Positions 10,627 to 13,925 of a stretch of 13,925 bases of DNA are shown piece by piece. Made by a program: the position numbers and the translations under genes. The stretch comes from Deltaproteobacteria bacterium (GTDB taxonomy: Bacteria; Desulfobacterota; DSM-4660; Desulfatiglandales; B25-G16). The stretch covers positions 724,298 through 738,222 of the forward strand of contig CP070752.1 of assembly GCA_020348625.1 (NCBI GenBank). Direction: 5' to 3'. Each line of letters begins with the position of its first letter. Positions within the stretch are counted from its first letter, which is position 1. The notes beneath the pieces were generated by a model. The model was not told the origin of the DNA. It saw only the letters and a list, made by a program, of their open reading frames with translations, and made no database searches.

Positions 10627-13077
10627 ATGTTCAAGAAAAACTCCTTAGATAGTGTGTCAGTTCAAACGAGAAAGCAGGTTCCGTTGCTTCCGCTCAGGGA
10701 TATCGTGGTATTTCCTGGTATGGTAGTCCCGTTGTTTGTGGGCAGGGAAAAATCCGTTGATGCGCTGAAATTCGCTCTGTCTCAGGAAAAGGAAATTTTT
10801 CTGGCCACCCAGAAAAACGCCAAGGTAGATGAGCCGAGCCTCAGGGATATATATGCTTGTGGCACCCTTGCCACTGTTCTCCAGCTTCTGAAGATGCCCG
10901 ATGGAACTGTAAAGACCTTGGTGGAGGCGAAAACCAGGGCCAAAATCACTAATTATCTCCCCGAGACCGGCTTTTTTATGGTTGAGGTGGAAAAAATCCA
11001 AGAACATTACGAACCCAGCGCAAGAGTTGAGGCCCTTATCAGAAGCATCCAATCCTCCTTTGAATCGTATGCTAAGGTGAACGAAAAGGTTGGTGAGGAT
11101 ATAGCCGAAGCCGTTGCTACCGTATCCGACCCCTTTCAGTTGACCTACACCGTGGCAGGTCATCTATCGTCAAAGGCAAAGGAAAAACAGGCCTTGCTGG
11201 AGATGGAAGACGCCGAAAGGATGCTCGAAACATTATATAAGACATTGATCGCGGAGATCGATATTCTCAAGCTCGAGGAAAACCTGAGGGAGCGGGTCAA
11301 AAAGCAGATGGAGAAGACCCAAAAGAACTACTATCTGAACGAGCAGATGCGGGCCATACAGAAGGAAATGGGCGCCCAAGATGATTTTGCCAGCGAACTG
11401 AAGGATCTCGAGAAAAAAATAAAGAACAAGAATCTGCCTAAGGATGCTGCGGCAAAGGTACGGCATGAATTCAAGAAACTGAAAATGATGACGCCCATGT
11501 CTGCAGAGGCCACCGTGGTGCGGAATTACATCGACTGGATCTTGTCTCTGCCATGGCTCACCAAGACCAAGGACAAACTCAATATTGACGAGGCAGAAGC
11601 CATACTCGAAGAAGATCACTATGGCCTCTCCAAACCGAAGGAAAGAATTCTGGAGTACCTAGCCGTTCAAAATTTGACCAAGAAGATCAAAGGCCCCATT
11701 CTTTGTTTTGTCGGTCCACCAGGTGTTGGAAAGACCTCCTTGGCCAGATCCGTGGCCCGGGCCTTGGGCAGGAATTTCATCAGGGTCTCTCTCGGCGGAG
11801 TAAGGGACGAGGCTGAGATTAGAGGACACAGAAGAACCTATATTGGGGCTATGCCCGGAAAGATCATCCAGTATCTCAAGCGAGCGAAATCTAACAACCC
11901 GGTCTTTTGTCTGGATGAAGTTGACAAGATGAGTACTGATTTCAGGGGTGATCCATCGGCTGCTCTTCTAGAGGTGCTTGACCCAGAACAGAACTATGCA
12001 TTTAACGACCATTACCTCGATCTGGATTACAATCTCTCGGAGGTTCTCTTTATCACCACCGCCAATGACCTCATTGGTATACCGCCGGCCCTGCAAGACA
12101 GAATGGAGGTCATTCGGCTTCCCGGCTACACAGAACTCGAGAAGTTGCATATTGCAAAGAGATTCCTCATAAAGAAACAGACTCAGCAAAACGGTCTTTC
12201 AGATGATAATATCACCTTCTCCGATCAGGCTATCCTCGGCATTACTCGGCATTACACAAAGGAAGCCGGTGTTCGAAATCTTGAAAGGGAAATAGCAGCT
12301 GTATGCCGGAAGGTTGCCAAGGAGGTGGCGAGAAAAGGTAAATCCACCAGGGTCAGAATTACAGCGAATTCCATTCATCGTTACCTTGGTGTGGAAAAAT
12401 TCGACTTCGGCAAGACCGAAGAGCAAGATCAGATCGGTCTGGCGACCGGCTTGGCATGGACAAGTGTTGGCGGCGAATTGCTACAGATAGAGGCCACTGT
12501 TATGCCTGGAAAGGGTAATCTGGACTTGACCGGTACCCTTGGAGATATAATGAAGGAATCGGCTAAGGCTGCCTTAAGTTATGTTCGTTCGCGGGCAAGA
12601 AGGCTTAGCCTTCCGGATGACTTCTATGAAAACGTTGACATCCACGTGCATGTACCTGAAGGTGCTACACCGAAAGATGGACCTTCAGCAGGCATCACGG
12701 TAGCTACGGCGATTGCCTCAGCCCTGTTAAGAAAGCCCATTAGGAAAAACCTGGCCATGACCGGCGAAATAACCTTGAGGGGCAGAATTCTCTCGATCGG
12801 GGGACTCAAAGAAAAGATAATAGCCGCCCATAGGACAGGCATAGCACGGGTTCTCATACCCAAAGAAAACATGAAGGATATAGAAGAAATTCCCCAGAAG
12901 GTGCTCAAGAAGGTCGAGTTGGTACCAGTGGACCATATGGATTCGGTTCTCAAGGAGGCCTTCATTTTAGAGGAAGGGGAAGAGCTTTTTCTCTCGGAGG
13001 ACGCCTTCGAGCCGTTCGCTTTGCCGAAAGGAGAGATACCAAAAGGAGAAACGGAACCTACCGTTACCGCACACTAA
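10627..13077 (+). CDS. lon: Lon protease, ATP-dependent
   Basis: An 816-residue LonA-type protease. The N-terminal substrate-binding domain starts at about residue 17 ([20 protein letters not shown]). A coiled-coil region follows, then an AAA+ module with Walker A GPPGVGKT (363-370) and Walker B Asp430-Glu431 in FCLDEVDKM. The C-terminal peptidase has the catalytic dyad Ser687 (PKDGPSAG) and Lys730 (GGLKEK). Lon degrades damaged and regulatory proteins in the cytoplasm. The C-terminus extends beyond the peptidase as an acidic tail with a short PKGE duplication ([14 protein letters not shown]), probably disordered. The start has a weak AGGT 6 nt upstream, 11 nt after clpX. The stop is 4 nt before tRNA-Val, so the mRNA must run into the tRNAs or be processed there. 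Confidence 0.98.
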
Positions 13078-13081
13078 TTAT

Positions 13082-13156
13082 GGGCGGGTAGCTCAGTGGG
13101 AGAGCATCGGCCTTACAAGCCGGGGGTCACAGGTTCAAATCCTGTTCCGCCTACCA
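13082..13156 (+). tRNA. tRNA-Val (anticodon UAC)
   Basis: The acceptor GGGCGGG (13082-13088) pairs with TCCGCCT with G-U pairs at both ends. The discriminator is A and CCA is encoded (13154-13156). The D stem is GCTC/GAGC. The anticodon stem TCGGC/GCCGG encloses loop CTTACAA with TAC at 13114-13116. The T arm includes GGTTCAAATCC. It begins 4 nt after the lon stop and has only 1 nt before tRNA-Asp. Confidence 0.97.
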
Positions 13157-13157
13157 T

Positions 13158-13236
13158 GGGGACGTAGTTCAGTTCTGGTTAGAACGCCGGCCTGTCACGC
13201 CGGAGGTCGCGGGTTCAAGTCCCGTCGTCCCCGCCA
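13158..13236 (+). tRNA. tRNA-Asp (anticodon GUC)
   Basis: The acceptor GGGGACG pairs perfectly with CGTCCCC (13226-13232). The discriminator is G and CCA is encoded (13234-13236). The D stem is GTTC/GAAC. The anticodon stem CCGGC/GCCGG encloses loop CTGTCAC with GTC at 13194-13196. It is complete and presumably functional. Parts of it (13175-13186 and 13204-13236) are duplicated exactly downstream of the GIY-YIG gene. Confidence 0.97.
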
Positions 13237-13246
13237 CGAAAATATA

Positions 13247-13275
13247 AGCCTGTCTCCCAAAAGACGGGCTTTTCT
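13247..13275 (+). terminator. Intrinsic terminator after the operon and tRNAs
   Basis: AGCCTGTCT (13247-13255) pairs with AGACGGGCT (13262-13270) through one G-U pair, with a CCCAAA loop, followed by TTTCTATTT. It lies 11 nt after tRNA-Asp. It would end the transcript that includes lon and both tRNAs and would insulate the GIY-YIG gene. Confidence 0.75.
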
Positions 13276-13277
13276 AT

Positions 13278-13306
13278 TTGACAAGCCGGTGTTCTAATCT
13301 TAAAGC
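13278..13306 (+). promoter_or_regulatory. Possible promoter for the GIY-YIG gene
   Basis: A perfect TTGACA (13278-13283) lies directly after the terminator. At 17 nt spacing the -10 position reads TAAAGC (13301-13306), a weak match. Transcription would start at about the ATG at 13313, giving a nearly leaderless mRNA, which fits the lack of a ribosome binding site before that ATG. Confidence 0.35.
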
Positions 13307-13312
13307 TATCTC

Positions 13313-13570
13313 ATGCCTTTCTACGTCTATATTATTCAGTCCGAGATAGACGGAAGCTATTATATTGGATCTGCGCAGGATATTGTTGAAAGGTTAGAAC
13401 GCCACAACCAAGGGAGATCAAAATATACCAAGCACAAGCGTCCATGGCAGCTAGTTTATTGCGAAGAGCATCCAGACCGATCGAGTGCTATGAAACAGGA
13501 GAATCAAATAAAACGACAAAAAAGTAAGGAGGCTATTGAAACCCTGGTTAGAACGTCCCGTCAGGTATGA
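13313..13570 (+). CDS. Small GIY-YIG nuclease ending inside a tRNA-derived sequence
   Basis: An 85-residue single-domain GIY-YIG protein of the small (UPF0213/COG2827-like) type. The signature is YVY (residues 4-6) and YYIG (16-19). Arg27 and His31 (ERLERHN) and Glu63 (KQENQIK) occupy the conserved catalytic positions, so it looks active. GIY-YIG domains cut DNA and include homing endonucleases; small stand-alone members are mostly uncharacterised. Residues 78-85 (LVRTSRQV) and the stop are encoded by the partial tRNA-Asp copy: codons 78-81 are the tRNA D-arm piece and the rest is the hairpin at 13556-13575. No ribosome site precedes the ATG at 13313. The neighbourhood suggests a mobile or homing role at the tRNA gene (inference). 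Confidence 0.88.
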   Translation: MPFYVYIIQSEIDGSYYIGSAQDIVERLERHNQGRSKYTKHKRPWQLVYCEEHPDRSSAMKQENQIKRQKSKEAIETLVRTSRQV

Positions 13571-13608
13571 CGGGAAGGTCGCGGGTTCAAGTCCCGTCGT
13601 CCCCGCCA
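13544..13608 (+). pseudogene. Partial, remodelled tRNA-Asp copy
   Basis: Positions 13544-13555 equal tRNA-Asp 13175-13186 (D-arm piece, 12 of 12), and 13576-13608 equal 13204-13236 (variable loop, T arm, acceptor 3' strand, discriminator and CCA; 33 of 33). The 17-nt anticodon arm between them is replaced by an unrelated 20-nt hairpin. The 5' acceptor strand and the 5' D-stem strand are absent. It cannot make a tRNA and is a duplicated 3' portion, like an attachment-site remnant. Confidence 0.93.
13556..13575 (+). repeat. Perfect 8-bp hairpin replacing the anticodon arm
   Basis: TCCCGTCA (13556-13563), loop GGTA, TGACGGGA (13568-13575). The GIY-YIG stop codon TGA is the first triplet of the right arm. 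The left arm shares TCCCGTC with the tRNA 3' half (13220-13226 and 13592-13598), so the right arm could instead pair with that downstream copy. Confidence 0.9.
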
Positions 13609-13617
13609 GTTGAGTTT

Positions 13618-13655
13618 AAAGGACCGAGGTCTGAGGACTGAGGTCCTTTCTTATG
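13618..13655 (+). terminator. Probable terminator after the GIY-YIG element
   Basis: AAAGGACC (13618-13625) pairs exactly with GGTCCTTT (13642-13649). The 16-nt internal segment also contains repeated GAGGTC/GAGGAC units, and the tail is TTTCTT. It could end transcription of the GIY-YIG gene; the T-run is interrupted by a C. Confidence 0.5.
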
Positions 13656-13680
13656 GTACAGACAATCCACCGAGGAATCG

Positions 13681-13857
13681 ATGGAGAAGCGCTACGCCCT
13701 GCGAGCGCGCGGGTTTGATCTGGCGAAGACTGCTCGCAGGGTAGCCGAGGTCCTGGGAGGGAAGCAAATGGCAGAAGAAACAACAGGATTTCCTTACTGC
13801 GGAAGCCTGCCGTTTCAACTCTTCTTTGCTGCTCAACCTCTGCCTGCGTTCAAATAA
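13681..13857 (+). pseudogene. Possible remnant of a transposase-associated (DnaA-domain-like) protein
   Basis: A 58-codon frame begins MEKRYALRARGFDLAKTARR and continues with VAEVLGGKQ. From memory this resembles the linker and start of the DnaA-like C-terminal domain found in REP-associated tyrosine (Y1) transposase-type proteins. After about residue 30 the similarity is lost and the frame ends at 13857. The frame at +1 reads on to a stop near 13915 without recognisable motifs. There is no upstream transposase domain, so this is at most a fragment. The family guess is weak and unverified. Confidence 0.22.
13697..13741 (+). repeat. 10-bp perfect inverted repeat
   Basis: CCCTGCGAGC (13697-13706) and GCTCGCAGGG (13732-13741) are exact reverse complements with a 25-nt spacer. 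They lie in the putative remnant frame, where they encode ALRA and ARR. The repeat may be a structured DNA element or a coincidence of arginine and alanine codons. Confidence 0.6.
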
Positions 13858-13925
13858 TTATGGAAAGGCCATCGCGGGCGACACGAAAGGACCCGCCGAA
13901 AGACGCGAGATATGATTCGAGCTCA

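Follow-up and report, generated by a model that had tools for sequence, protein, structure and literature searches.

A small GIY-YIG nuclease gene between an intact and a hairpin-broken tRNA copy: a probable one-gene selfish element of bacterial tRNA genes

In the 13,925-nt stretch of a Deltaproteobacteria chromosome analysed here (the window), a small GIY-YIG nuclease gene lies between an intact tRNA-Asp and a copy of the same tRNA that is broken by a hairpin. Units of this kind insert at tRNA genes and leave one intact tRNA, are present in some relatives and absent from others, occur in tandem, and leave remnants without the coding sequence (CDS). We consider it probable that they are very small one-gene selfish elements that target tRNA genes and spread by nuclease-initiated recombination, with the tRNA copies serving as homology arms. 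An earlier note on this DNA had proposed a minimal single-gene element at a tRNA gene that keeps one tRNA intact, and this part of its reading gains support from empty, filled and remnant sites and from the recurrence of the design beside other tRNAs.

The locus reads in one direction on the forward strand, from a gene at 10627..13077 (ORF; assigned by family to what we presume to be the Lon type of proteases, and used as synteny anchor) via the conserved neighbour tRNA-Val(tac) at 13082..13156 (ARAGORN) to tRNA-Asp(gtc) at 13158..13236, the left tRNA arm of the element, which the earlier note had called intact and which ARAGORN and Rfam (RF00005, 71.3 bits) recognise as such. Directly 3' of it follows a leader of 76 nt (13237..13312, +) with a terminator-like hairpin at about 13246-13271 (stretch 13237-13275, folding z -5.45) and then, as the same note had it, the nuclease gene (ORF 13313..13570, +, 85 aa; Pfam PF01541, E 1.9e-20), which leads into the broken tRNA-Asp copy. 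Measured between the 3' ends of the intact and the broken tRNA copy, the distance is 372 nt. The stretch after the broken copy (13609..13652, +) contains another terminator-like hairpin (13610-13655, z -3.07) and, judged by its position and by comparison with relatives, is probably the native terminator of tRNA-Asp. Further downstream of the element lies a 58-aa ORF at 13681-13857 (+).

The broken copy forms a single tRNA-derived stretch without a gap (13544-13608, +), with a 20-nt hairpin, TCCCGTCA-GGTA-TGACGGGA (13556..13575, from sequence and folding), where tRNA-Asp has its 17-nt anticodon arm. It opens with a D-arm piece (13544..13555; tRNA positions 18-29) that repeats 13175-13186 exactly over 12 nt and closes with the last 33 nt of the tRNA (13576..13608; variable region, T-arm, acceptor 3' strand and CCA), an exact copy of 13204-13236; a repeat search of the window returned both. 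These two repeats had been correctly reported in the earlier note, which listed them separately and missed the hairpin as well as the mirrored forms, arrays and CDS-less copies described below. The hairpin is the signature of the element. Because the nuclease CDS extends into the broken copy, its last codons (LVRTSRQV) consist of D-arm and hairpin sequence, and the motif [LI][VIA][RK]TSR occurs after residue 60 in 76 of the 120 homologs listed (of 384 found) and within the first 60 residues in none of these 120, which suggests from protein sequence that the Asp-type arrangement is common. Other Asp-type broken copies carry their hairpin in the same position with compensated stems: with hairpins picked by position and not by pairing, 177 of 188 stem positions are Watson-Crick and 2 are G-T pairs across 25 distinct rows, one of which (L286) is foreign to the type. 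At L286, a further tRNA-like piece lies ca. 70-120 nt past tRNA-Asp and is not an Asp-type hairpin-broken copy.

Recurrence of the tRNA 3' end downstream of the CDS is not a matter of chance, since 31 of 56 GIY-YIG hits with an intact upstream tRNA repeat at least 11 of its last 12 nt there, compared to 0 of 1120 matches for shuffled 12-mers; in the other 25 of 56, the 12-mer is absent (three loci of this set, L007, L022 and L177, count twice due to a split frame, and a few were fetched by tRNA pattern). The fragments resemble the tRNA at their own locus: over the last 30 nt, this tRNA was the strictly best match for 12 hits, shared first place for 14 and was outdone for 2.

The protein belongs to the GIY-YIG superfamily by its Pfam match and by residues Y6, Y17, G19, R27, H31 and E63, which are invariant across 30 aligned homologs and include the Tyr, Arg and Glu of the domain that we take to be catalytic. 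As the match spans residues 3-72 of 85, the protein comprises little beyond the catalytic domain. Its nearest solved sequences are UPF0213, which it also resembles in size, and SLX1, a longer protein with a role in DNA repair (1zg2, E 1.8e-9; 1ywl, E 7.9e-6; 4xlg, E 0.01), followed by a weak match to the intron-associated endonuclease domain of I-TevI (1mk0, E 0.4). The small size, this kinship and the weakness of the I-TevI match make a long sequence-specific recognition doubtful. The gene is under purifying selection, with dN/dS values of 0.09-0.39 in the 15 closest pairs that gave a finite value, pairs that overlap, are not independent and include tandem copies. Small GIY-YIG genes that carry no label other than "GIY-YIG nuclease family protein" or "putative endonuclease" are common; in a sample of 395 genomes of one phylum, 193 contain a homolog.

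A survey of 30 loci, extended by further loci from other genomes, uncovered the same design with tRNA-Asn, Ala, Ser, Ile, Arg and Met in several phyla. Asp-type elements in Desulfobacterota and Nitrospirota carry a TCCCG..CGGGA hairpin at the same place of their broken copies, a hairpin type shared by the Ile-type element L019 of Dehalococcoidales, while the hairpin is TCCGCC..GGCGGA in Asn-type, GGTCGNATCGAC in Ala-type and TCCCC..GGGGA in Bacteroidota broken copies; L001, L012 and L082 have a second hairpin in place of the T-arm. The order can be mirrored, with a broken 5' tRNA copy preceding the gene and the intact tRNA following it (L104, L113, L151, L152 and L157, also by BLAST; L196, L199 and L052 by eye). 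Gene-bearing units occur in tandem at L016/L046, L193 and L162, and two to three tandem 5'-broken hairpin copies stand upstream of an intact tRNA at L016, L106, L156, L092, L007 and L057. At these six loci, each tandem copy carries the tRNA's own upstream stretch and no nuclease gene lies between copies. By eye, the distal array units appear more decayed in L016, L106, L193 and L095.

Linkage between the nuclease gene and tRNAs is strongly oriented. Within 300 nt of the 153 hits obtained by protein search, a tRNA lies upstream on the same strand in 53 and on the opposite strand in 0, and downstream on the same strand in 10 and on the opposite strand in 1, compared to a tRNA in 1 of 258 control windows 1000-1300 nt away. 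The corresponding counts for 159 distinct GIY-YIG hits, a set that takes in loci fetched by tRNA pattern which the 153-hit set leaves out, are 56, 0, 12 and 1; the pattern-fetched loci, L089-L132, were kept in this set and in the flank-piece, hairpin-density, tree and 12-mer counts. Both an intact tRNA and a broken piece accompany 38 of the 153 hits, a piece only 20 and an intact tRNA only 23 (meaning that no piece was detected at E 1e-4), and 25 of the 28 hits at E <= 1e-25 are linked. With intact tRNAs masked, broken tRNA pieces (E <= 1e-4) were detected in 83 of 316 flanks, including some pattern-fetched loci, against 2 of 263 distant stretches. Similarly, TCC..GGA hairpins number 47 in 43.9 kb beside tRNA-linked genes and 4 in 36.9 kb beside unlinked ones, with 1 in 35.6 kb and 1 in 32.5 kb in controls near the linked and unlinked groups, respectively. 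The earlier note had counted occurrence of the same nuclease family without tRNA fragments against its reading, and such occurrence is real for part of the wider family, as 72 of the 153 hits have neither tRNA nor piece. Unlike the linked elements, these homologs (e.g., L150, L155 and L145) are mostly free of hairpins, and they largely occupy their own parts of the protein tree; at 20 unlinked loci, no other noncoding RNA reached the gathering threshold. Perhaps the unlinked homologs have a different role. Searches of phage records returned 13 matches, all below 60% identity, and viral contigs gave none.

In a phylogeny of 141 proteins built on 81 columns, with 53 of its 138 inner branches open, tRNA labels in 14 groups (isotype or none) require 25 changes, compared to a mean of 68 for shuffled labels, and in 0 of 200 shuffles was the count as low. 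Labels denote the nearest tRNA or piece and were corrected by hand for nine loci whose intact tRNA lies downstream, as well as for one Val-to-Asp case. Most isotypes cluster on the tree, including Asp (5 changes in 29 rows), Asn (3 in 15) and Ala (2 in 7), as does the label "none" (12 changes in 68 rows, shuffled mean 47.3), while Ser (6 changes in 7 rows) and Leu (2 in 2) do not; some of the clustering stems from kinship among the genomes.

The most direct evidence for insertion comes from relatives, and here the earlier note had named genomes lacking the insert as the way to check its reading and a lack of empty sites as a point against it; empty sites do exist. Of 18 genomes in the family of G009 and G005, 10 yielded a tRNA-Asp when up to 3 mismatches were allowed, and in all 10 loci the stretch of Lon 3' end, tRNA-Val and tRNA-Asp is 74-80% identical to the window. 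Three of these loci appear empty (L304, L307 and L310), three carry the nuclease gene by HMM (L305, L311 and L313) and three carry hairpin remnants without the gene as judged by eye (L308, L309 and L312); the tenth, L306, has a run of N and was left out of this sorting. At the empty L310, tRNA-Asp runs straight into its terminator. Over 900 nt upstream plus the tRNA, L311 is 94.4% identical to L310, with upstream values of 96.0% for L309, 97.1% for L308 and 81.3% for the window, which itself is part of no empty/filled pair. The first 70 nt past the last broken copy of L311 are 90% identical to the sequence that follows the tRNA in L310 (same comparison: L002 97%; L308 85% with 16 gap positions), and the leaders of L311 and L308 share 47% and 43% identity with that sequence. 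Between tRNA and native terminator lie 463 nt in L311, where a gene unit is accompanied by one more broken copy that lacks the CDS; in the remnant L308, this distance is 101 nt. A terminator motif follows the empty tRNA-Asp in 9 of 18 parsed loci (20 given), the broken copy in 3 of 11 parsed rows and the filled-locus tRNA, i.e., in the leader, in 0 of 9, with 23 hits in 6018 random windows; this test on 14 filled loci (leader parsed in 9, after-part in 11) is weak and superseded by the 70-nt comparison. L062 and L063, outside the parsed rows, look like motif matches by eye, and the letters of the window matched the motif neither in the leader nor after the broken copy.

Among the pairs listed for Chitinophagaceae, the filled L104 differs from the empty L103 by a 325-bp unit with a 22-nt tRNA duplication and hairpin TCTCGCCTGAGGCGAGA (flank identities of 88% across 1072 nt and 74% across about 460 nt), and L113 differs from the empty L114 by 322 bp with the same 22-nt duplication length and hairpin (left flank 87%; the L114 contig ends shortly past the tRNA). 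A tree of the upstream gene from 25 loci requires two changes to account for the two filled rows, as its starred branches dictate, and the simpler reading is that these insertions are two gains; of the other 23 rows, L016, L028 and L029 bear other-type forms at the same tRNA. A separate family with Ala-type sites has 6 of 14 loci that look empty, 6 with the gene and 2 with CDS-less copies (L096 and L100), all by eye, and tandem units in two gene-bearing loci, L092 and L095. Presence and absence of the gene at one site were thus seen between species (L310/L311, L103/L104 and L114/L113), not within one.

The best explanation, predicted from the arrangement of these sequences, is that the nuclease cuts a tRNA gene and that repair copies the element in. 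The mobile unit would comprise leader, nuclease gene and hairpin-broken tRNA copy; as it adjoins an intact tRNA, the gene has sequence of the same tRNA on each side. We infer that the nuclease would initiate recombination by breaking or nicking the tRNA gene, most likely in the region that the hairpin replaces, i.e., the anticodon arm or nearby, so that one broken end could pair with the donor's intact copy and the other with its broken copy. Repair would then copy the unit in and rebuild the tRNA, and the hairpin would shield the broken copy from cutting. Ordinary and mirrored forms alike place the gene between sequences of the same tRNA and would thereby meet the need of recombination into a broken tRNA gene. 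The first cut could fall either in the recipient tRNA or in the donor hairpin: that the anticodon arm alone is replaced in Asp-type copies speaks for a cut in that arm, as far as sequence can tell, while the SLX1-like sequence and, by analogy, the nicking of cruciforms by the GIY-YIG enzyme ANKLE1 (available text of PMC10287932) favour a structure-cutting step. Against this explanation stands that the adjoining intact tRNA would itself stay a target; in element-bearing alleles, the broken copy is altered by the hairpin and the neighbouring intact tRNA is unaltered. The doubtful sequence recognition, the hits that lack a tRNA, a piece or the 3' 12-mer, and the scattered Ser and Leu labels count against it as well. 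If tRNA sequence is the sole homology needed, one element could move between unrelated chromosomes. More tentatively, and as a possibility to which we give less than even credence, the unit of about 320-460 bp may be a natural cleave-and-rescue device that cuts and rebuilds a tRNA gene with the tRNA as its sole homology arms and with hairpins that mark or shield the cut copy, which would make it a previously undescribed class of mobile element, very small even among autonomous ones, whose tRNA arms could carry it across phyla as well.

The alternative that fares best, though we think it rather unlikely, puts the hairpin first in the manner of REP/RAYT systems, in which small hairpin units occur with and without a nearby nuclease-like gene and in arrays. 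An SLX1-like nuclease would cut the hairpin, as cruciform or single-stranded DNA, in its own broken copy, the freed tRNA ends would invade tRNA genes, and CDS-less hairpin copies would be non-autonomous derivatives. This would fit the kinship to UPF0213 and structure-specific SLX1 as well as the activity of ANKLE1 and would do away with the immunity problem posed by the intact tRNA. It also agrees with the density of hairpins, ca. one per kb by linked genes and rare elsewhere, with stems that vary while their pairing holds, the foreign L286 being counted, and with the hairpin-broken copies without CDS seen by eye at L096, L308, L309 and L312, which match the hairpin units without a gene of REP/RAYT. 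Yet a general mobility of such palindromes did not emerge: of 21 palindrome loci from 20 genomes, 19 are without tRNA-like sequence and 2 have an intact tRNA, and hairpin type varies among the elements of a single genome (G013: L013, L196, L199 and L200). Counts of the palindrome pattern exceeded the reversed control in 12 of the 20 genomes, equalled it in 1 and fell below it in 7. Unlike REP/RAYT, the linked elements carry their hairpin inside a tRNA copy, and in place of a Y1 (HUH) transposase the only gene of the unit is that of the GIY-YIG nuclease.

We regard it as improbable that host recombination duplicates tRNA genes in tandem and that the nuclease gene is a passenger or domesticated and not itself mobile. 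The six loci with 5'-broken arrays do resemble serial duplications, but a passenger would not be expected to accompany different tRNAs in several phyla as one gene family, and purifying selection, the mirrored forms, the foreign hairpins and the two changes forced at a single site speak against it as well. Still far less credible is that the broken copy acts as RNA, as a tRNA mimic or small RNA in a regulatory or toxin-antitoxin-like pair with a nuclease acting on RNA: the window's broken copy does fold better than its shuffles (z -2.94), but an Rfam search gives it no tRNA score, 3' and mirrored 5' broken copies retain different halves of the tRNA, and the presence, remnants and absence among relatives that are 94-97% identical upstream argue for a mobile and not a housekeeping function.

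Just as hard to credit is the leftover of an ordinary island integrated at a tRNA by a tyrosine recombinase and since reduced to the nuclease gene and an att piece. Such islands and phages insert at a tRNA gene and restore it, so that an intact tRNA stands on one side and a plain 3' tRNA fragment on the other, and plain, hairpin-free 3' tRNA pieces indeed occur at L001, L002, L015, L064 and L133. The insertions into empty sites measure only 322, 325 and 463 bp, however, and units of 322, 325, 372 and 463 nt cannot accommodate an integrase next to the nuclease gene; we reject this origin of the unit. Nor is the fragment a plain 3' direct repeat of the att kind, since hairpins take the place of the anticodon arm and at some loci also that of the T-arm, and unlike in islands there are mirrored 5' versions of it. 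Group I introns with GIY-YIG homing genes also sit in tRNA genes, but here the tRNA is uninterrupted, and no Rfam intron family matched within 13000-13925 at E <= 1, so that an intron is rejected.

Nearest in behaviour, going by the available text of PMC13096335 and PMC2988022, is SegB of phages T4/T6, a free-standing GIY-YIG homing endonuclease that adjoins tRNA genes, has its target in the tRNA region and is amplified segmentally together with a tRNA by homologous recombination. Like SegB, the window element is a GIY-YIG gene adjoining a tRNA gene; SegB is phage-borne and sits between phage tRNA genes, with no hairpin-broken tRNA copy described in these texts, whereas the window element is chromosomal, encodes an 85-aa protein, has a hairpin-broken copy and belongs to a group in which most clades are tied to one tRNA. 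A paper on the GIY-YIG superfamily (PMC1564403) mentions tRNA three times in its available text, none of them on neighbouring tRNA genes, and our literature search found no description of such elements; as it covered mostly non-subscription papers, a prior report may exist. If a large share of the homologs are parasites of tRNA genes (81 of 153 hits are linked to a tRNA or piece), this would give a role to a family without one and account for hairpins and broken tRNA copies next to tRNA genes. It would also provide a natural counterpart to engineered cleave-and-rescue gene drives, small enough for a one-gene construct of less than 500 bp.

Two minor observations concern individual genomes. The plain 3' tRNA-Asp pieces at L001, L002, L015, L064 and L133 lie upstream of the nuclease gene and start near the anticodon loop, and in G001 about 9.4 kb separate the nuclease gene from the intact tRNA-Asp; later islands seem to have entered the same tRNA-Asp and parted it from the nuclease gene. 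In G013, the palindrome TCCCGATAGCTATCGGGA accounts for 23 of the 50 TCCCG..CGGGA places listed (73 in all), is spread genome-wide over many contigs and is a dispersed repeat, which also breaks the tRNA-Leu copy beside the GIY-YIG gene in L199.
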